This document shows, in pieces, positions 52,297 to 62,470 of a stretch of 64,000 bases of DNA; positions within the stretch are counted from its first letter, which is position 1; every line of letters starts with the position of its first letter. The stretch lies in the NCBI RefSeq assembly GCF_028532725.1, contig NZ_JAQKGU010000010.1, positions 1 through 64,000 on the forward strand. The letters are read 5' to 3'. The DNA is from Desulfovibrio sp. Fe33. Lineage in GTDB: Bacteria; Desulfobacterota; Desulfovibrionia; Desulfovibrionales; Desulfovibrionaceae. Position numbers and translations under genes: made by a program. The notes under the pieces were generated by a model. That model saw only the letters and a program-made list of their open reading frames with translations, searched no databases and was not told the origin of the DNA.

Positions 52297-55200
52297 TTAG
52301 TCGATGCCCAGGTCCGCCCGGTGTTTCGGCACGCCGGTCTTGCCCTCGGGTTTGGTGTCGCGGTCGAGGAGGAAGACGCGGTCAGTCAGGTCCGGATTGC
52401 CGGTGATGACGTACTGCTTGACGGCGTTGGCCCGCCGCAAGGCCAGTTCACGGAGCATCTCGTCCGTCACGACGATCCTGTCGCGGATGAACTTTTCCAT
52501 GACGTCCACGGGCTGCCGGTCAGTGACGAACAGGGTGGTGGGCTTGACGCCTTCCTCGTCCGGCTCGTCGGCGTACGCCTCATAAAGCATGTCCTCGTAT
52601 TCTTCCGGGGCGACGACGATTGCGTCAACCGTGGTCTCGGCCCGCTTGGAGCGCGGCAGGTCGTCGTATTTGGCCTGCCTGACCTTGTGTTCGAGAATGG
52701 CCTGAACCAAGCCGTTCGTGTCGGCGACGGGGTCGTAAACCCCATCCACTTCAAGCTTGAGCTTTGGGCGTTCCGTAAGAGCCTTGACGACCGTGTCGAG
52801 CTTCTCCGTGCCCTGCGCGCTCAATGCTGCCCGGCCCGGATCGAAGACTACGAAATCCATGTTTTCCCCGCCTCCGAATATGGAGCCGATAAGGGAAAAC
52901 GGCGATGTCAGGGCCTTGAAGAGCAGGTTGATGATGGCCTGGAACACGATGCCGCCGATGCGGAAGTTCGGGTCGTCCAGCCTTCCGGAGACGGGCAGGT
53001 TGAGCTGCATGTCGCCGTTGGAGTCCTGGAGCAGGGATAGGCCGAACTCGACCGGGATGTTGGGCGCGTCGGGCCGTTTGTCCTTCTTGCCCAGCTTGAG
53101 CTGCTCGATGAAGAACTTGTTCTTGGCGTTGAGGACCCAGTCCTCGGTCTTGAATATCACGTCCGCGTATAGCCGCCCCTTTTCTATGGGGTAGGCCAGG
53201 TTCTTGAGGGTGTACGGGGTCAGGGGAACCAGCTCCATGCCGTTCACCGAAATGGTCAGATCGGAGTAGATCGGCCTGACCAGGGGGTTGAGCACGCCGG
53301 TGACCGCCACGGGCGTCGGGCCGAGTTTGGCCTTGAATTCCACCTTGGGACGCGCCTCCGCGGTCTGGCCGATGTCGGTCAGGACAAGGTTCATGTCCGT
53401 GGTCTCCGTGGCATAGGCCGGGTGGATGCTGTCGTCTCGGAATTTGACCGAGCCGTTCTGCATACCGATTTTGCCCACGGTCAGGGTTTCGAAAAACGGC
53501 TTCTCCTCGGCGGCTTCGGCTTCGGTCTTCGCCTCGATGGCCGCGACCTCGGCCGGGGGAACCGGGGCCGGCGCGTCGGGTCCGGCCGCTGCGGAATCGG
53601 CGGGCGGCTGCGGGGGCTCGGCCAGGCGCAGGGCGCGCCGTATGTTCAGTCTGCCGTCCTTGTCGAAGTGCACCAGGGCGCGCGGGCCGTTCAGGTTGAT
53701 TTCGCCCACGGACAGGGACATGGGGGCATTGGCGAAGGTGACGCCCTTGACGTCCAGGCGGTCGATGCCCGCCATTTCGGCGTCGTCGAAGGTGGTCTTG
53801 ACCTTGAGCCCGGTCAGGGCCGTGTCGCCCCTGGCCGTGTACTTCGGTGTCTCGCCCCCGGTGAACGCATAGGAGATGTTGGCGTGGGCCGCGCCGTCCG
53901 AGATCAGCAGTTCGGTGTCCTCGGCCAGGTAGCCGTCCAGCGGCCTGAGGCCGAGCTTGTCGACCCGTATACCGCCCGAGGAGGCGAGCGGGTCCAGGGA
54001 GGCCCGGCCGTTGGCGGAAAACCAACCCCCGCCGGACCAGCCTCCGCTCAGGGAGTAGGGCATTTGCGCGCCCTTTTCCGTCGTGAAATCGGCCATGTCC
54101 AGTTTGAAGTTGCGCACTCCAAGCCGGGCAGGGTGCTCCAGGGCCAGGTCGCGGAAGTCGGCGGCTCCCTCCTCCACCACGAGGTGGCCCAGGGTGGCCT
54201 TCCAGGGTTCTTGGCTTTCGCCGTTCCCTTCCGTCTTCACCTCGTCGGCGGGAGAGTCTTCGGCCGTTTGGCCCATGTCCGCGAAAATCTTTTCCAGGTC
54301 CAGTCGGCCGTCCTTTTCCCGTATCACTTTGACCGAGGGCGCGGTCAGTTTGATCTCGGCCACGCCGATTTCGCGGGCCGCCAGATCGAGAGACGCGCCC
54401 GATACGTTCAGCGTGTCCATGGTGAAGCTCGGCTCCTCGGCTTCCGGCTTGCGTACGGCCAGGCCCGCCAGGCTGGCGGTTCCGTTTTGCACGGTCAGTT
54501 GCGGAGCGCCGTCGGCATCGCGGTAGTCGATGTTCACGGAAAAGCCGAGGGAACCGGAATCCACCAGCAACGGCTGGAATTCATTGATGTAGGGACCGTA
54601 AAGGGGCACGTCCAGGTCCTTGCCGGAAAGGGTCAGTTTGGCCGTCGGCGGGTCCACGGTGGCCTCGCCGTTGATGTAGATGAAGCCCTTTTCCCCGAAG
54701 GAACCCTTGACCACGGTGGTCTGAGCGGCGCGGGTGGTCAGCCCCTCCACATCGATGTCGAGCTGCCGGAAGGTGTGTTGGAAGCCGTTTTTGACCTGCT
54801 TGTCGGTGAAATCAATGGTGCCGTTGTTCAGTTCGAATTTACGCAGGTCCAGAACGAAGGCGGCGTCCGTGTCCGCTTCCGTCTTGACCTTGGGGCCGGT
54901 GGCCCCGGCCTGGGAGCCGGGGAAATATCCCGCCCAATTGATTTCGCCGCCGTCCCGGCGCACGACCTTGAAAAACGGCTGCTCCATGGTCACCTGCTTG
55001 ACGACCAGGGCGTTGTCTCTCAAGGAAAAACGCTCCATCTCGAAGGAGAGTTTCTTCATGGTGAGGACGGAACCGTCGCCGGGGGTGGTCAGCTCCAGAT
55101 CGGTAAGGCTGCCGCCGCCGCCGAGGAAGAACCTGATCCGCTGGCCCTCGGGCCGTTCGAAGAACAGGGAGAAATCCGAAGTGAACCGGCCCTTGCTCAA

Positions 55201-55956
55201 CTGGAGCGGAGTCTTGATGGGGACGTACTTCCAGTATTGGCGCAAATCCACATCCACGGCCCCCAGCTCGAATTCCGTTTGCAGGGTCTTGTCGAAGGGC
55301 AGGGTCTTGCCTTTGAGTTCCACGGGGTCGCCGTTGACCACCGCCTTGAACATGGGCTGGGTGAATTCCTTGACCTGGTCCGTGAAGCTCGACGTAAACG
55401 GGACCACCAGGTTGATGTCGGATATGACGTGCTTTTTTTCGCGGGGGCGGTCGTCGAAGGTGATGGTCGAGTTGGTCATCTCGAAGCCGTAGAGGGCGAA
55501 GGGGAAAATAGCTCCCTCTTCCTTTTGCTCTTCGGCGTCTTCCGGGGTGCCCAGGAGGTCGGAGATGGAATATCGGCCGTTCCCGTAGAAGGTCAGGTTT
55601 ACATTCAGGTCGTCCAGCTTGAGATAGCCGATGACCGGCGCCAGTTTCCAGATGGTGGCGATGCCGGGCGCGGCCATCATGTGGCCCAGGGAGATAAGGT
55701 CGCCTTCCTCCTCGCGGTTCTTGACGCGCAGCCCGGTGATCTCCAGGTGGAAGTTGAGCGGGTTGAAATAGATTTCCTCCACCTGCGCTTCCCGGTCGAG
55801 GATGCTTCGGGCTTGCGAGGTCAGGACGGATTTCATGATTGGCGGCACGGCGAAGAAGCCGAACAGGGTATAGGCGGCGAACGCGGTCAGCAGCCAGAAA
55901 ACAATCCGTCGCAGGCGCGGAGTGCCTATTTCGATTTTGTCGAGGAAAGCGAGCAT
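52297..55956 (-). CDS. Large AsmA-like DUF748 protein
   Basis: A 1219-residue protein with one N-terminal membrane segment (about 18-38) and a very long extracytoplasmic part of repeating beta-rich AsmA/DUF748 units, seen as recurring patterns such as LNLTFYGNGRYSISDLLG-like segments and KDGRLDLEKIF / KDGRLNIRRAL. An Ala/Pro-rich linker (about 780-810) splits it. Near the C-terminus LDTVVKALTERPKLKLEVDG resembles the start of an OmpA-like peptidoglycan-binding fold. Large AsmA-like proteins are thought to bridge the envelope and move phospholipids. Monocistronic, divergent from the sensor kinase. Confidence 0.85.
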   Translation of the reverse strand: MLAFLDKIEIGTPRLRRIVFWLLTAFAAYTLFGFFAVPPIMKSVLTSQARSILDREAQVEEIYFNPLNFHLEITGLRVKNREEEGDLISLGHMMAAPGIATIWKLAPVIGYLKLDDLNVNLTFYGNGRYSISDLLGTPEDAEEQKEEGAIFPFALYGFEMTNSTITFDDRPREKKHVISDINLVVPFTSSFTDQVKEFTQPMFKAVVNGDPVELKGKTLPFDKTLQTEFELGAVDVDLRQYWKYVPIKTPLQLSKGRFTSDFSLFFERPEGQRIRFFLGGGGSLTDLELTTPGDGSVLTMKKLSFEMERFSLRDNALVVKQVTMEQPFFKVVRRDGGEINWAGYFPGSQAGATGPKVKTEADTDAAFVLDLRKFELNNGTIDFTDKQVKNGFQHTFRQLDIDVEGLTTRAAQTTVVKGSFGEKGFIYINGEATVDPPTAKLTLSGKDLDVPLYGPYINEFQPLLVDSGSLGFSVNIDYRDADGAPQLTVQNGTASLAGLAVRKPEAEEPSFTMDTLNVSGASLDLAAREIGVAEIKLTAPSVKVIREKDGRLDLEKIFADMGQTAEDSPADEVKTEGNGESQEPWKATLGHLVVEEGAADFRDLALEHPARLGVRNFKLDMADFTTEKGAQMPYSLSGGWSGGGWFSANGRASLDPLASSGGIRVDKLGLRPLDGYLAEDTELLISDGAAHANISYAFTGGETPKYTARGDTALTGLKVKTTFDDAEMAGIDRLDVKGVTFANAPMSLSVGEINLNGPRALVHFDKDGRLNIRRALRLAEPPQPPADSAAAGPDAPAPVPPAEVAAIEAKTEAEAAEEKPFFETLTVGKIGMQNGSVKFRDDSIHPAYATETTDMNLVLTDIGQTAEARPKVEFKAKLGPTPVAVTGVLNPLVRPIYSDLTISVNGMELVPLTPYTLKNLAYPIEKGRLYADVIFKTEDWVLNAKNKFFIEQLKLGKKDKRPDAPNIPVEFGLSLLQDSNGDMQLNLPVSGRLDDPNFRIGGIVFQAIINLLFKALTSPFSLIGSIFGGGENMDFVVFDPGRAALSAQGTEKLDTVVKALTERPKLKLEVDGVYDPVADTNGLVQAILEHKVRQAKYDDLPRSKRAETTVDAIVVAPEEYEDMLYEAYADEPDEEGVKPTTLFVTDRQPVDVMEKFIRDRIVVTDEMLRELALRRANAVKQYVITGNPDLTDRVFLLDRDTKPEGKTGVPKHRADLGID

Positions 55957-56241: not shown

Positions 56242-57960
56242 ATGTCCGACGACCATTATTACCAGGGTTTGGCCAGGAGCATGATGTTCACCATCATCCT
56301 GGTTTCCTTCGCTCCTCTTTTCATCGTCGTGCTCATCGCCGGGTACCAGTACAGCGTCGCCTACGAAGAGAAGGTCGAGGCGCATCTGCGGGAACTGGTC
56401 CTCAAACATGACCAGACCATCGATGCCTACCTGGACGAGAAGGTTTCCGAAATTCGGGTGCTGGCCGAGGTCATCGATCTCGGCGGCCTGGCCTCGCCGG
56501 AAGGGATCAAGTCCCTGCACGACGCGCTCGGCCGGGGGCACGGCTCGGATTTCGTGGACCTGGGGCTCATCGACGAGAACGGCATCCAGGTCGCCTATTC
56601 CGGCCCGTTCCAACTTCAGGGGCTGGACTATTCCGGCGAGCCGTGGTTCCAGGCCGTGCGCGAGAACATGGTTCACGTCAGCGACGTGGGGCTGGGAATG
56701 CGCGGCGTGCCGCATTTCATCATCGCCCTGCGTATGCGGGCCGACGGCCGCGAATGGGTCCTGCGCACCACGCTGGACTTCATTACCTTCAACCGGCTGG
56801 TGGAAAATATCCGTATCGGCGAGACGGGCATGGCCTATATCATCAATTTGCAGGGCGAGTTCCAGACCACCCCGCATCGGGACATGTCCGCCGAGGTCCC
56901 GTTCCTGCGCGAACTCGCCCGGTCCATCTCCGGGAGCGCCGATCAGGTGCGCGGCAAGGCCGCAATGGCCGTCATGGACAATCCCGCCACGGGCCGCGAG
57001 ACCATCTTCGTGACCAGCCAGATCAAGGGCGGCGACTGGCTTATGGTCTACCAGCAGGATTCGGCCGACGCCTTCGCCACTCTGAACCGTAGCCGTGATC
57101 TCGCCATCGTCATCCTGTTCATCGGAGGCGCGGCCATCTCGGTCATGGCGTGCCTCATGAGCCGCCGGATGGCCCGCAAGGTCGCCCGGGCGGACGCGGC
57201 CAAAGACATCATGAACGAGCAGTTCATCGAGGCTGGCAAGCTGGCCAGCGTGGGCGAGCTGGCGGCGGGCATCGCGCACGAGATCAACAACCCCGTGGCC
57301 ATCATGGTCGAGGAGGCGGGCTGGATTCAGGACTTGCTCGAGGAGGGGCTCTCCAGGGGCGACAACGAGCGCGAGGTCCAGCGGGCGCTCAACCAGATCC
57401 GCACCCAGGGCGCGCGTTGCAAGGAAATCACCCACAAGCTTCTTTCATTTGCCCGCAAGATCGATCCCACGGTCATGTCCGTGGACCTCAACGAACTGAT
57501 CCGGGAGATAGCCGAGCTGTCCTCCCAGCGGGCCAAGTACGCCAACGTGGTCATCGAGACCAGCCTGGGCGACAACATCGCGCCCATCAAGGCGAGTCCT
57601 TCCGAAATGCAGCAGGTGTTCCTCAACCTGGTCAACAACGCCATCGACGCCATGGACCCGGGCGGGGGTAGCCTGGACATCAGCACCCGCCAGGAAGGCG
57701 ACACGGTGCTGGCCCTGGTGTCGGACACCGGGTCCGGCATTCCCGAGGCCAACCTGTCGCGTATCTTCGATCCGTTTTTCACCACCAAACCCGTGGGCAA
57801 GGGGACCGGTCTGGGCCTGTCCATCATCTACGGGATCATCAACAAGATGGGCGGCAACATTTCGGTGGACTCCGCCGTGGGCAGGGGCACCACCTTCACC
57901 CTCCGTCTGCCGGCCGGCGCGGCTGGGGACGCCGAGGAATTTGCGGCCGTACGGATGTAA
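56242..57960 (+). CDS. Membrane sensor histidine kinase heading the receiver/PPS-like operon
   Basis: A 572-residue kinase: membrane segment (about 14-36), extracytoplasmic sensor (about 37-280, Cache-like by pattern, for example [14 protein letters not shown]), second membrane segment (about 285-305), a short linker without HAMP or PAS, HisKA with His346 in [14 protein letters not shown] and a HATPase domain ([28 protein letters not shown]). The ligand is unknown. Three receiver genes and a PEP-synthase-like gene follow on the same strand with short gaps, so this kinase is their likely phosphate source. Confidence 0.9.
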
Positions 57961-57987
57961 TGAGCATACAACCAACAGGAGGGCGAC

Positions 57988-58422
57988 ATGCCTGCTAGAG
58001 TATTGCTCGTCGATGACGAGAAAGGGTTCGTGGATACCATGACCAAGCGCCTTGAGAGCCGCGGCTTCACCGTGGGCGTGGCCTATGACGGGCCGCAAGC
58101 CCTGGCCGCGCTGGACAAGGCCGGAATAAACTTCGATGTGGTCGTCCTGGACGTCAAGATGCCGGGAATGGACGGCAACGAAGTGCTTAAGCGCATCAGG
58201 GGAGATTATCCCCTTGTTGAGGTCATCATGCTCACCGGCCACGCCACCGTGGAATCGGCCATCGAGGGCATGAAGGCCGGGGCCTTCGACTACATGATGA
58301 AGCCGTGCGAACTGAGCGAGCTCATCGACAAGATCGGCGAAGCCTACGACAAGAAACAGGCGCACGAGGACAAAATCCTCGAAGCCCGCGCCCGGCACAT
58401 CGAGTTGCGCAGGGGAGACTAG
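57988..58422 (+). CDS. Single-domain response regulator 1
   Basis: A 144-residue receiver with no output domain. Acceptor Asp55 (VVVLDVKMPGMDG), Thr in MLTGHA and Lys in YMMKPCEL are present. A charged C-terminal helix of about 20 residues extends beyond the fold. GGAGG precedes the ATG. It lies 27 bases after the kinase; it resembles the other two receivers, especially the third, suggesting local duplication. Confidence 0.88.
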   Translation: MPARVLLVDDEKGFVDTMTKRLESRGFTVGVAYDGPQALAALDKAGINFDVVVLDVKMPGMDGNEVLKRIRGDYPLVEVIMLTGHATVESAIEGMKAGAFDYMMKPCELSELIDKIGEAYDKKQAHEDKILEARARHIELRRGD

Positions 58423-58431
58423 GGGGGAGCC

Positions 58432-58803
58432 ATGGTTGATACGCCCATCCGCGTCCTTCTGGTCGACGACGAGCTCGGCTTTCTCGATGTGCTGGCCAAG
58501 CGCATGGGCAAGCGGGGCTATGCGGTTACGACCGCGGGCAGCGGGGCCGAATCCATCCGGGTGCTCCGGGACCATGATTTTGATGTTGCAGTCCTTGATC
58601 TCAAGCTTGAAGATATGGACGGTATCGAGGTTTTGCAGATAATGAAGAAAATGGTGCCGGAACTGCCGGTCATCATGCTTACCGGCCACGGTTCGGAGCA
58701 GGCCGCCAGGGAAGGCGTCGAGTCCGGCGCCTTCGACTACCTGCTCAAGCCGTGTGATTTGGACGACCTCCTCGAAAAGGTCGGGGAGGCCGTGGCCGGT
58801 TAG
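58432..58803 (+). CDS. Single-domain response regulator 2
   Basis: A 123-residue receiver without output domain. Acceptor Asp56 lies in VAVLDLKLEDMDG, where the usual MPGM is changed to LEDM; the Thr (MLTGHG) and Lys (YLLKPCDL) are kept. Nine bases separate it from the first receiver. It lacks the extended C-terminal helix of the other two, so it may have a different partner. Confidence 0.88.
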   Translation: MVDTPIRVLLVDDELGFLDVLAKRMGKRGYAVTTAGSGAESIRVLRDHDFDVAVLDLKLEDMDGIEVLQIMKKMVPELPVIMLTGHGSEQAAREGVESGAFDYLLKPCDLDDLLEKVGEAVAG

Positions 58804-58835
58804 TCGGGAACGACAACGAAGAATCGGGAGTGGCC

Positions 58836-59243
58836 ATGGCCGACATAAAAGCGCTCCTTGTGGACGACGAGGAATCTTTTCGCAACACGCTGTGCAAGCG
58901 GCTTTCCCGCCGGGGGATGACCGTGGAGCAGGCGGGCTCGGGCGAGGAGGCCCTGGAACGCCTCAAGACCTACCAGCCGGACGTAATCCTGCTCGACGTC
59001 AAGATGCCCGGCATGGACGGACTGACCGCCCTGCACAAAATCAAGGAAGTCGATCCGCTGGTGGAGGTGGTCATGCTTACCGGCCACGCCAGCATGGAGA
59101 TAGCCATTCGGGGCATGGAACTAGGAGCTTTCGACTACCTGATGAAGCCGGTGGAGTTCGAGGAGTTGCTCTACAAGCTCGAAGACGCCTCCAGCCGAAA
59201 GAAGCGGCATGAGGAGCGCATCGCGGCCCGGGCGAAGAGTTAG
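58836..59243 (+). CDS. Single-domain response regulator 3
   Basis: A 135-residue receiver without output domain; acceptor Asp54 (ILLDVKMPGMDG), Thr (MLTGHA) and Lys (YLMKPVEF) present. The C-terminal helix is strongly basic (RKKRHEERIAARAKS). ATG 58836 was chosen for GGGAG five bases upstream; a GTG at 58830 overlaps that ribosome site. The PEP-synthase-like gene begins 78 bases on. Confidence 0.88.
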   Translation: MADIKALLVDDEESFRNTLCKRLSRRGMTVEQAGSGEEALERLKTYQPDVILLDVKMPGMDGLTALHKIKEVDPLVEVVMLTGHASMEIAIRGMELGAFDYLMKPVEFEELLYKLEDASSRKKRHEERIAARAKS

Positions 59244-59321
59244 TGATTTTCGGTCCGTACCCTGCTAGAAGCAGATGACCCTGTGACCTTGACTTAGACG
59301 CTTTCCAGAGGACGACATTTC

Positions 59322-61913
59322 ATGGGCCTGTTCGATTGGCTGCGGTTCCGGAAAAAGGAAAAGACCCCCGAGGAGCGGGCCGAGATGCGCCGCGTCTTCG
59401 CCACCCGCTACGACCACTTCCGGCTGCTCATCCAGGCCAACACCCGCGCCCATGAACTCATGGGCGAGCTGGAGGAGGCCCTCCGAGGCTTCACCCCCTA
59501 CGGGATGCATTTCGTGCGGACTCTGTGCACGCGCATTTCCACATCCATCTACCAGATGGTTCGCCACCTGGGCGAGCTGGAGGAGAAGGGCCACGATGAT
59601 CTTGTGGCGGCCATGCAGGCCATCAACGAGCGCATCATGGAGGAGCTGGAGCCCGACGTCCATGCCGTGGGCGGCGAGCTGGTCATCGACCTGGCCGAGG
59701 TCAACCGCGACCACGCCGACCTGTGCGGCCCCAAGATGGCCATGCTCGGCGAGGCCGGGTCCAACCTCGGGCTGCGCATTCCTTCCGGCTTCGTCATCAC
59801 CGTGGCCGCCTATCAACAATTTGCCCGGAACCAGGGGCTCGGCGCCGAGATCGATCGGCTTATTCAGACCATGGCCGGGGACGACCGGGAGTCCGTTTTC
59901 CAGATTTCGTCGAGCATCATGCAGCTCATCATGGATACCCGGCTGCCCGACGATCTTGCCGCGACCATACTGGACGCCTACGACAACCTGGCCGCGAAGC
60001 TCGGTTCGCCTCCGGATTTGGCCGTGCGGTCAAGCGCGCTCGGCGAGGATATCGAAGGTTCTTCCTTCGCAGGGCAATACAGGTCGGTGCTCAACGTGGA
60101 CCGCGCTTCCTTGCTCGATGCCTACAAGGAAGTCGTCGCCTCCAAGTACTCCCGCCAGGCCATGGCCTACCGGCTCAGCCACGGCATCCGCGACGACGAT
60201 GTGGCCATGAGCGTCGGCTGCATGACCATGGTGGAGTCCGTTGTCGGCGGCGTGGCGTATTCGGGCAATCCGGTGAACGTGCGCGACGATCGCATCTCCA
60301 TCAGTTCGGTCTGGGGACTGCCCAAGCCTGTCGTGGACGGCACCGCCGGAACCGACGAATTCATTGTCTCCCGCGATCCCCTTCGTCTGGAAGAGGTGCA
60401 TGTGGCCGAGAAAACCGACATGTACGTCTGTAGCGACGGCGAGGGCGTATGCCGGGAGAAGCTTACAGAAGATAAGGCCTCCCAGCCTTCCCTGACCGAG
60501 GAGCAGGCCTTGCTCGTGGCGCGTGAAACCGTGCGCATCGAGGAGCATTTCGGCACGCCCCAGGATATCGAGTGGGCCATGAGCCCGGACGGGGCCTTTC
60601 ATCTACTCCAGTGCCGTCCGCTCATGCGTGTCTCCTCGGGCGAGCACAGCACGCCGTCGGCCAACCTGCCCAAACCAGTACTCTCCGGCGGCAAGACCGC
60701 CAGCCCCGGCGTGGGCGTGGGACCGGCTTTCGTCGTGCGCAAGGATGTGGACGCTCTCAGCTTCCCCGACGGCGGCGTAATGATCCTGCGCCAGGCTCTG
60801 CCCAGCCGGGCGGCCCTTCTCGATCGCGCCAGCGCGCTCATTTCCGAACAGGGCGGCATGGCCGGACATCTGGCCAACGTGGCCCGCGAGTTCGGCGTCC
60901 CGGCCCTGTTCGGGGTCAAAGGCGCCGTCAGCCGTTTCGAGAACGGCCGGATTCTCACCGTGGATGCGGAGGGAAGGGCCGTGTACGAAGGCGCGGTGGA
61001 GGCCTTGCTCAAGGAGCATACCCGGCAGCGGATCATGCGCGGCAGTCCGGTGCAGGGCGCTCTGCGCAAGGCGGCCCGCCACATTGTCCGTCTCAATCTG
61101 ACCAACCCGGAATCCCCGGAATTCAAGCCCTCCAACTGCCGGACCCTGCATGACGTCATGCGTTACTGTCACGAGCGGGCCGTGAACGTCATGTTCGAGT
61201 TCGGCACTCACGACGACTACATCGAAGCCGCCAGCCGCCAGCTCATCTGCGACGTGCCCAAACAATTCTGGATTCTCAATCTGGACGACGGATTCTCCCC
61301 CGAAGGCCAGGAGCGCAAGGACCGCTGCATTCTTCTGGAGCACATAGTTTCCTACCCCATGCAAAAGTTATGGGAGGGGATGCAGGCCGTGCCGTGGGAA
61401 GGCCCTCCGCCGGTCCACGGCCGAGGACTCATGTCGGTCATGTTCGAGGCCACCATGAACCCGGACCTCGTCCCGTCCACCGGGACCCGCTACACGCAGA
61501 AGAACTATTTCATGGTCTCCAAGAATTACTGTTCCCTGCAATCGCGCTTCGGCTTTCATTTCTGCGGCGTCGAGGCCCTTGTGGGCGACCGGGTTAGCGA
61601 AAACTATGCTTCCTTCCAGTTCAAGGGCGGGGCCGCCAACATGGAACGGCGCATCCGTCGCGCCCGTTTCGTAGGCGATCTCCTGGAAATGTTCGACTTC
61701 CGCGTTCGCGTTCGTCAGGACAACATGTTCGCCCGCGTGGAAGGGCTCGATCGGGAAACCATGGGCCATCGACTCAAGATCATCGGCTACCTCATTACCC
61801 ATACCCGCCAACTCGACATGATTATGTCGGACGAAAGCGCTATCGCCCGCCGCCGAGATCGGTTTCTTAACGACTTCAAGCTGTTCGACGATCCGCCCGC
61901 TGAAGGGGAGTAA
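59322..61913 (+). CDS. PEP-synthase-like protein lacking the PEP-binding barrel
   Basis: An 863-residue cytoplasmic protein. Residues 1-130 are a unique helical domain. Residues about 135-440 match the ATP-grasp pyruvate-phosphate dikinase N-domain (AVRSSALGEDIEGSSFAGQY). Residues about 470-560 match the swivelling phosphohistidine domain, with His516 in GGMAGHLANVAREFG. The C-terminal TIM barrel that binds pyruvate/PEP is missing; instead about 300 residues of unknown type follow. It cannot be an ordinary PEP synthase but could transfer phosphate from ATP through His516 to another target. Its operon of one kinase and three receivers suggests signalling. Confidence 0.8.
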   Translation: MGLFDWLRFRKKEKTPEERAEMRRVFATRYDHFRLLIQANTRAHELMGELEEALRGFTPYGMHFVRTLCTRISTSIYQMVRHLGELEEKGHDDLVAAMQAINERIMEELEPDVHAVGGELVIDLAEVNRDHADLCGPKMAMLGEAGSNLGLRIPSGFVITVAAYQQFARNQGLGAEIDRLIQTMAGDDRESVFQISSSIMQLIMDTRLPDDLAATILDAYDNLAAKLGSPPDLAVRSSALGEDIEGSSFAGQYRSVLNVDRASLLDAYKEVVASKYSRQAMAYRLSHGIRDDDVAMSVGCMTMVESVVGGVAYSGNPVNVRDDRISISSVWGLPKPVVDGTAGTDEFIVSRDPLRLEEVHVAEKTDMYVCSDGEGVCREKLTEDKASQPSLTEEQALLVARETVRIEEHFGTPQDIEWAMSPDGAFHLLQCRPLMRVSSGEHSTPSANLPKPVLSGGKTASPGVGVGPAFVVRKDVDALSFPDGGVMILRQALPSRAALLDRASALISEQGGMAGHLANVAREFGVPALFGVKGAVSRFENGRILTVDAEGRAVYEGAVEALLKEHTRQRIMRGSPVQGALRKAARHIVRLNLTNPESPEFKPSNCRTLHDVMRYCHERAVNVMFEFGTHDDYIEAASRQLICDVPKQFWILNLDDGFSPEGQERKDRCILLEHIVSYPMQKLWEGMQAVPWEGPPPVHGRGLMSVMFEATMNPDLVPSTGTRYTQKNYFMVSKNYCSLQSRFGFHFCGVEALVGDRVSENYASFQFKGGAANMERRIRRARFVGDLLEMFDFRVRVRQDNMFARVEGLDRETMGHRLKIIGYLITHTRQLDMIMSDESAIARRRDRFLNDFKLFDDPPAEGE

Positions 61914-61920
61914 GGGAGAG

Positions 61921-62453
61921 TGCCTCCGGCGGCCGGGGGAAGGGGAAAGGGAAACCCTTTGAAAAGGGTTTTCCCTTTCCCCTTCCCCCGGACCCCCATC
62001 CCCTTTTCCTTCCTAAACTTTTTGGGCCGCTTCGCGGGTTTTCACGACGTTGTGTCGGTCTGTCGTCCGAAAGTCGGCCATGTCGCGTTCGCTTGGCCTC
62101 GCCGAAGGCGTGATAAGAAGCTTTGAAAGGGAGTCCAGAGGGGAAACTTTCCCGAAAGTTTCCTCCTCTGGCCGCCGGAGACATTCCTTTCAATCTTCTG
62201 TTCTCAAGTCGGCCATGTCGCGTTCGCCCGGCCCCGCCGAAGGCGCGATAAGAAGCTTTGAAGGGGAGTCCAGAGGGGAAACTTTCTCGAAAGTTTCCTC
62301 CTCTGGCCGCCGGAGGCATTCCTTTCAATCTTCTGTCCTCAAGTCGGCCATGTCGCGTTCGCCCGGCCCCGCCGAAGGCGCGATAAGAAGCTTTGAAGGG
62401 GAGCCCAGAGGGGAAACTTTCTCGAAAGTTTCCTCCTCTGGCCGCCGGAGGCA
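61921..62453. repeat. Dispersed intergenic repeat, copy 3, with 135-bp triplication
   Basis: It has the same 14-base inverted ends and left hairpin as the copies at 25350 and 32384. The right part is repeated three times with a period of exactly 135 bases, starting at 62071, 62206 and 62341; each unit holds the CAGAGGGGAAACTTT hairpin and ends in GGCCGCCGGAGGCATTC (first unit: one changed base). Units two and three are almost identical, so the amplification is recent. Open frames across it are products of the repetition. Confidence 0.85.
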
Positions 62454-62470
62454 TTCTCGATCAAAGGCGC

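Follow-up and report, generated by a model that had tools for sequence, protein, structure and literature searches.

Five co-directional genes at positions 56242-61913 of the stretch of Desulfovibrio sp. Fe33 DNA analysed here (the window: positions 1-64,000 of contig NZ_JAQKGU010000010.1) code for a sensor histidine kinase (HK), three bare receivers (RR1, RR2 and RR3) and, last in the operon, an 863-residue barrel-less protein similar to phosphoenolpyruvate (PEP) synthase that is named PPSL here (Table 1). The operon belongs to a large and apparently undescribed family of sulfate-reducer clusters in which a kinase, receivers and an altered PEP synthase are brought together, often beside sulfur-anion transporters; the probable role of the operon is to help turn such a transporter on and off. 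The reading preferred here, with a probability of about 0.5, is that the operon is half of a two-component module controlling a sulfur-oxyanion permease (TSUP/TauE in this lineage) via a PEP-synthase-like phosphotransferase. Such control of the permease by PPSL would probably be post-translational.

The gene neighbourhood of PPSL was assessed on distinct genes of loci L034-L153, 80 of which are flanked by 5 kb of DNA on each side. A receiver gene lies within 5 kb in 77/80 of them and a kinase gene in 65/80 (79/81 and 68/81, respectively, when counted per locus with looser thresholds); the linkage of receivers to PPSL and the gene order, which the first-pass annotation of the window had expected to be kept in relatives, are thus conserved. 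A gene for a TSUP permease (TauE, PF01925) is found within the same distance in 56/80 distinct genes and a TSUP or DASS permease gene in 59/80, the per-locus TSUP counts of the two sets being 22/40 and 35/41. The chance expectation for TSUP, calculated from 6.6 TSUP genes per genome, is ~2%, and recurrence across loci rules out chance neighbours. Directly upstream of PPSL, the pair TauE-g236 is present in 50/127 distinct genes, 18 of which display the full order HK-R-R-R-TauE-g236-PPSL, where g236 is a protein of ~236 residues that matches no Pfam family and for which two membrane segments are predicted. The order found in the window (HK-R-R-R-PPSL) occurs in 10/127 distinct genes, while 21/127, contig ends included, have no labelled gene directly upstream. 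Proteins of the g236 type were detected in 105/150 genomes, all of which have the PPSL carboxyl-terminal domain (CTD), and in 0/20 genomes devoid of this domain. In a tree of PPSL proteins, the 10 members of the window group (support 0.816) are placed inside a clade of 19 tips (support 1.0; L043 and L080 are one gene) that also takes in operons with TauE-g236 directly upstream or nearby; the HK-R-R-R-PPSL-like operons L048 and L087 are found elsewhere, and the tally is biased by 20 loci (L176-L195) chosen mostly for g236. Identical genes (L043/L080 and L063/L184) are removed from the distinct-gene recount and kept in per-locus counts and trees. Note that the maps of open reading frames (ORFs) rest on home-made profiles, not on curated annotation, and label signalling, permease and a few other families.

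Genetic data are available for a cluster of the same make-up. The passages on this nitrate cluster in a published study (PMC4001038) report that D. vulgaris insertion mutants in DVU0246 (PPS-like), DVU0247 (receiver), DVU0250 and DVU0251 (TauE) show the same growth whether or not 100 mM nitrate is present and that the mutant in DVU0245 (phosphatase) is inhibited by nitrate. In the same passages the authors suggest a leaky thiosulfate transporter, mentioning as unpublished data that G20 mutants are mildly sick on thiosulfate, and propose no mechanism for the PPS-like protein (PMC4001038). The order and domains of the genes DVU0251-DVU0245 and Dde_0597-Dde_0605 given there are those of another PPSL locus of the window's genome, paralog 3 (L035: TauE-g205-PtxB-HK-R-PPSL-DSPase, coding a 205-residue protein, a phosphonate-binding-type protein and a dual-specificity phosphatase in addition to the proteins already named). 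Common to these systems, a TauE permease, a histidine kinase, a receiver, a PPS-like protein and a phosphatase are coded in one cluster; relative to the window operon, the nitrate cluster has one receiver, not three, and additional PtxB-like and phosphatase genes (PMC4001038). The window operon itself joins the kinase, bare receiver and PPS-like protein without a TauE gene, which is present in the operon of paralog 3. Polarity on TauE does not appear to be an easy explanation of the DVU0246 phenotype, since TauE precedes the PPS-like gene in the order of the copy found here; if this order holds, DVU0245 is the sole cluster gene downstream and polarity would not be behind the phenotype. By analogy with this paralogous cluster, whose genetics agree with the comparative genomics, PPSL, a bare receiver and a permease would be linked in one pathway.

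The window's genome codes for two further full-length PPSL copies, paralogs 2 and 3 (40% and 32% identity). A DASS permease gene is found three genes away from paralog 2, with several kinases and receivers around. A different contig, C7, carries an HK-R-R-R-TauE-g236-HK-sigma54 regulator cluster without PPSL (L157, 5624-13697), with a divergent receiver gene upstream; its g236 is the only one of the genome. The kinases of the window and C7 operons are 47% identical and their receivers 51-58% in matching order, RR3 being slightly closer to the first C7 receiver (53% identity). In L045, L075 and L185 the PPSL gene adjoins a cluster of the C7 type. From this arrangement and from the likeness of the window and C7 operons, we infer that the two are parts of one system, of which TauE-g236 of C7 is likely the permease. 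The genes DVU0258-DVU0262 are a possible equivalent in the model strain; their tags were not found in the literature search.

PPSL matches PPDK_N (PF01326, E 4.9e-88) and the PEP-utilizers swivel (PF00391, E 1e-15). Its His516 is aligned to the swivel histidine in a PEP synthase of known structure (8a8e) and is kept in 36/37 aligned relatives, nearly all of which also keep the ATP-grasp residues Lys138, Arg236, Glu417, Gln430 and Arg432. The ATP-grasp domain and the phosphohistidine swivel are thus retained, as had been proposed. Equally borne out is the replacement of the barrel by about 300 residues of no known family: no match to PEP-utilizers_C (PF02896) was obtained at E <= 1 in PPSL or in 88 relatives, while the barrel-bearing enzyme of the same genome matches it at 2.9e-45 with the same library. 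PPSL scores below the cut-offs of the equivalog models for PEP synthase (TIGR01418, 320 bits for 739.75) and for rifampin phosphotransferase (NF041857, 223 bits for 999). It shares with PEP synthase the ATP-grasp and swivel domains with conserved catalytic residues, and differs from it by the missing PEP/pyruvate barrel, by another CTD and by an added amino-terminal helical domain. The latter had been taken to be unique to PPSL; its profile was recovered from 163/171 ORFs carrying PPSL-type domains (counted per locus, so that one gene may count more than once). The complete order of amino-terminal domain, ATP-grasp, His and CTD is found in 160 of these 171 ORFs; among the remaining 11, 6 have the CTD and miss another part, several being cut by a locus end, and 5 show no match to the CTD, among them the barrel-bearing enzyme. 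No receiver-PPSL fusion occurs among the 171 classed ORFs, which rules out fusion as a proof of contact between the two proteins. A stop-to-stop frame of 1838 residues that starts at L068:7759 and contains PPSL is probably not a real fusion, because its extension lies opposite an HK-R-HK run. A degenerate PPSL in L064 (L064:7386-10100) has lost the swivel His and the ATP-grasp residues and kept the carboxyl-terminal invariants; an HK and a receiver separate it from an intact PPSL. Its CTD may work without phosphotransfer.

The CTD is a family without Pfam, NCBIfam or PDB relative found here. No family of Pfam or NCBIfam matches more than 5/88 relatives (best E 0.0027) and its profile retrieves no chain among PDB sequences below E 0.47. 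The AlphaFold model of the CTD (mean predicted local distance difference test, pLDDT, of 82) yielded nothing at E <= 0.001 with Foldseek. The best VIA-align hits are designed ferredoxin-like proteins (Z 6.9, root-mean-square deviation (rmsd) 1.8, 65 residues). None of the matches is convincing, and the outcome is no evidence of a new fold. In our reading, the secondary-structure order predicted by the model differs from that of a TIM barrel. Residues His610, Asp611, Arg614, His617, Arg742, His746, Asn761, Arg780, Asp800 and Asp832 are invariant in 88/88 aligned CTDs.

The operon has the hallmarks of a two-component system, with a HisKA/HATPase_c kinase and receivers whose phosphorylation-site residues are intact. 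Response_reg is the sole Pfam domain above cut-off in RR1-3 and no DNA-binding domain was detected by the Pfam scan in any of the five operon proteins; scan and coordinates agree with the initial description of five genes in a row on one strand without DNA-binding output. A tree built from 306 receiver domains, 296 of them distinct, groups the receivers according to their position in HK-R-R-R runs: 37/38 distinct position-1 receivers form one clade (support 0.965) and 40/40 position-2 receivers another (support 0.84), both free of receivers from other positions, and the largest position-3 clade gathers 27/40 (support 0.75). The four phosphorylation-site residues are intact in 123/124 receivers of positions 1 to 3 (duplicates kept). 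When a lone receiver lies directly upstream of PPSL, it falls in the position-3 clade in 16/21 distinct cases. RR1 and RR2 are thus ancient proteins that have been maintained separately, which is less clear for RR3, and an RR3-type receiver is the likely partner of PPSL. The correlation of receiver and PPSL distances, weak as it is, leans in this direction too.

The CTD is present in 130/150 genomes of the order. A whole-protein PPSL search gave 133/150 at E <= 1e-40, including 5 matches without CTD and missing 2 genomes that have it, so that 130/150 is the better count. Scanning genome contigs with the CTD identified no fewer than 572 relatives; the 80 most similar to the CTD of the operon were retained in the locus set together with 40 loci hand-picked from the whole-protein search. 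According to contig labels, these best 80 belong mostly to deltaproteobacterial sulfate-reducer lineages, with one Myxococcales and one Candidatus Magnetobacteriaceae. Across the phylum (296 genomes, some of them related and non-independent), the CTD is found in 107/145 dsrA-positive vs 3/151 dsrA-negative genomes; put otherwise, 107 of the 110 genomes with CTD have dsrA above cut-off, as do 38/186 of those devoid of CTD. The two phylum searches scored at most 8 and at most 6 candidates per genome. Within the phylum, the PPSL family is nearly restricted to dsrA-positive genomes.

These data can be assembled in a module in which the dCache kinase would sense an extracytoplasmic anion and phosphorylate the receivers. 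The RR3-type receiver would then act on PPSL and switch it, and PPSL would spend ATP to charge His516. The CTD, with its invariant His/Arg/Asp set, would take the phosphoryl group or bind a ligand and the permease would be licensed; the phosphate of His516 might be passed through or with the CTD to a target that enables the permease. We infer the direction of control, the phosphotransfer and the acceptor. In a broader and more tentative proposal, which we regard as somewhat doubtful, the module would be a new type of two-component output: receivers controlling an ATP-driven phosphohistidine protein that gates sulfur-oxyanion permeases post-translationally, an equivalent, fuelled by ATP, of the regulatory arm of the phosphotransferase system (PTS), nearly confined to dsrA carriers in the phylum and featuring a CTD of an undescribed family as phosphate acceptor or anion sensor.

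A different role, unlikely and still the strongest of the alternatives, is that of a metabolic enzyme whose phosphate acceptor is a small molecule, like the drug in the case of rifampin phosphotransferase; the CTD would bind the acceptor, the receivers would set the activity, and the permease link would reflect handling of the transported compound. In comparisons with the AlphaFold model of PPSL (mean pLDDT 84, fair quality), residues 118-567 most closely resemble the folds of rifampin phosphotransferase, PEP synthase and PPDK, the first being the top match (residues 118-557, Z 41.5, rmsd 3.2, 419 aligned). Both proteins combine ATP-grasp and swivel His with a different acceptor domain, which in rifampin phosphotransferase is inserted elsewhere in the chain than the CTD of PPSL, and we know of no link of that enzyme with two-component genes. 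The His, Asp, Arg and Asn residues invariant in the CTD are conserved as those of an active or ligand site would be. What speaks against such an enzyme is that the PPS-like insertion in the nitrate cluster behaves, in the passages cited, as the permease insertion (PMC4001038).

It is less probable that the module acts on transcription, PPSL or the bare receivers being a phosphate donor or sink for a neighbouring HK and sigma-54 regulator that switch permease genes. An HK and a sigma-54 regulator do follow TauE-g236 or PPSL in several mapped clusters, C7 included, and transcriptional control was proposed in the parts of a 2025 study that deal with Desulfobacteraceae clusters of DASS sulfate transporters with many two-component systems (PMC11887813). 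Those clusters resemble the ones described here by the association of Cache-domain kinases, response regulators and sulfate transporters in sulfate reducers and differ by their transcriptional model (PMC11887813); neither "phosphoenolpyruvate" nor "dikinase" is found in the main text of that article. DASS, TauE and PPSL are joined in the cluster of one relative (L105). A transcriptional role fits poorly with the mapped stretches of the window operon (L036), L058 and L071, where there is no sigma-54 regulator, and leaves the ATP-grasp domain and the conserved CTD unexplained. A primarily binding or scaffolding function of PPSL, with a dispensable catalytic part, is improbable: the degenerate relative at L064:7392 agrees with it, and the conservation of the catalytic His in the other aligned proteins (36/37) argues against it. 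The reading of PPSL as a normal PEP synthase whose barrel has diverged, suggested by the strong match of residues 119-598 to PEP synthase models, is very improbable indeed and was discarded on account of the missing PF02896 match, with its positive control, and of the predicted secondary-structure order of the CTD, which in our reading is not that of a TIM barrel. A defence system was dropped as a candidate, PPSL and HK (the two proteins scanned) having no match in PADLOC.

Several observations weigh against the permease-control module. Neither a TSUP nor a DASS gene is found within 5 kb in 21/80 distinct PPSL genes, 8 of them of the window type; no permease gene is part of the window operon and no TauE gene adjoins it, and the TauE-g236 pair on C7 represents a second type, its g236 having 39% identity to the PPSL-linked g236 query. 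The correlation of receiver and PPSL distances is weak (partial r 0.34 for RR3, 0.26 for RR1 and 0.02 for RR2; 29 loci). With regard to genetics, paralog 3 is equated with the nitrate cluster from the order, domains and sizes of the genes and not from sequence alignment, and when a transposon affects a whole operon the contributions of single genes are difficult to tell apart. The passages cited also report that the phosphatase mutant has a higher fitness under nitrate in D. alaskensis and does not in D. vulgaris, and that the DVU0250 mutant is resistant singly and unfit in the pool (PMC4001038). The counts are not phylogenetically independent, and there is no dsrA match in the window's genome (a 24-contig assembly) or in two other PPSL carriers. 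The genes aprA and tmcA/tmcB are present in the window's genome despite the missing dsrA match; an assembly gap is our guess.

Table 1. Genes of the operon and domains of PPSL in the window.
Feature	Position	Strand	Basis or remark
Sensor histidine kinase (HK)	56242..57960	+	dCache_1 between two predicted transmembrane segments, HisKA, HATPase_c (Pfam)
RR1, bare receiver, position-1 group	57988..58422	+	Pfam, receiver tree
RR2, bare receiver, position-2 group	58432..58803	+	Pfam, receiver tree
RR3, bare receiver, position-3 group	58830..59243	+	Pfam, receiver tree
PPSL, 863 residues	59322..61913	+	Pfam, alignment, structure model
PPSL amino-terminal helical domain, residues 1-118, family-conserved	59322..59675	+	
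PPSL PPDK_N ATP-grasp, residues 133-442	59718..60647	+	Pfam, structure comparison
PPSL PEP-utilizers phosphohistidine swivel, residues 481-550	60762..60971	+	Pfam, structure comparison
PPSL His516 codon, expected phosphoacceptor	60867..60869	+	Alignment
PPSL CTD, residues 563-863, matching no family found	61008..61910	+	

The five genes are separated by intergenic gaps of 27, 9, 26 and 78 bp. Divergent from the operon, a gene at 52297-55956 (- strand) codes for a very large AsmA-like DUF748 protein. On the other side, the stretch between PPSL and tmcA contains a tandem repeat (62071-62456; 135 bp unit, 2.9 copies, 96% matches). The tie to tmc genes suggested in the first-pass annotation proved weak: tmcA/tmcB directly follow PPSL in 4 (L036-L039) of 7 mapped window-type loci (L036-L041 and L048), as counted on a map that uses the codon model of the window's genome and misses genes in several loci, and they are treated here as neighbours. 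On the whole, that annotation had correctly recognized a barrel-less PEP-synthase-like protein with bare receivers in a linkage found to be conserved, and had missed the permease link, the split between two loci, the dsrA restriction and the published genetics of the paralogous cluster.

The components are of known kinds, namely two-component proteins, phosphotransferases with ATP-grasp and swivel domains, and TSUP and DASS permeases. Literature searches, from which PMC4001038 and PMC11887813 emerged as the relevant papers, did not find a description of the combination taken as one system, of a design with three receivers, of the CTD family or of the near-restriction to dsrA-positive genomes; the view that the combination is undescribed holds to that extent and is to be qualified by the nitrate phenotype published for a cluster of the same make-up, in the passages on that cluster (PMC4001038).

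Dissimilatory sulfate reduction starts with the import of sulfate and related anions, the control of which is, to our knowledge, little understood. A conserved module present in multiple copies, which joins sensing, ATP-dependent phosphorylation and sulfur-anion permeases, offers a testable answer to how this import is controlled. Nitrate is used against souring, and the module could explain the nitrate resistance of Desulfovibrio with insertions in the PEP-synthase-like gene.

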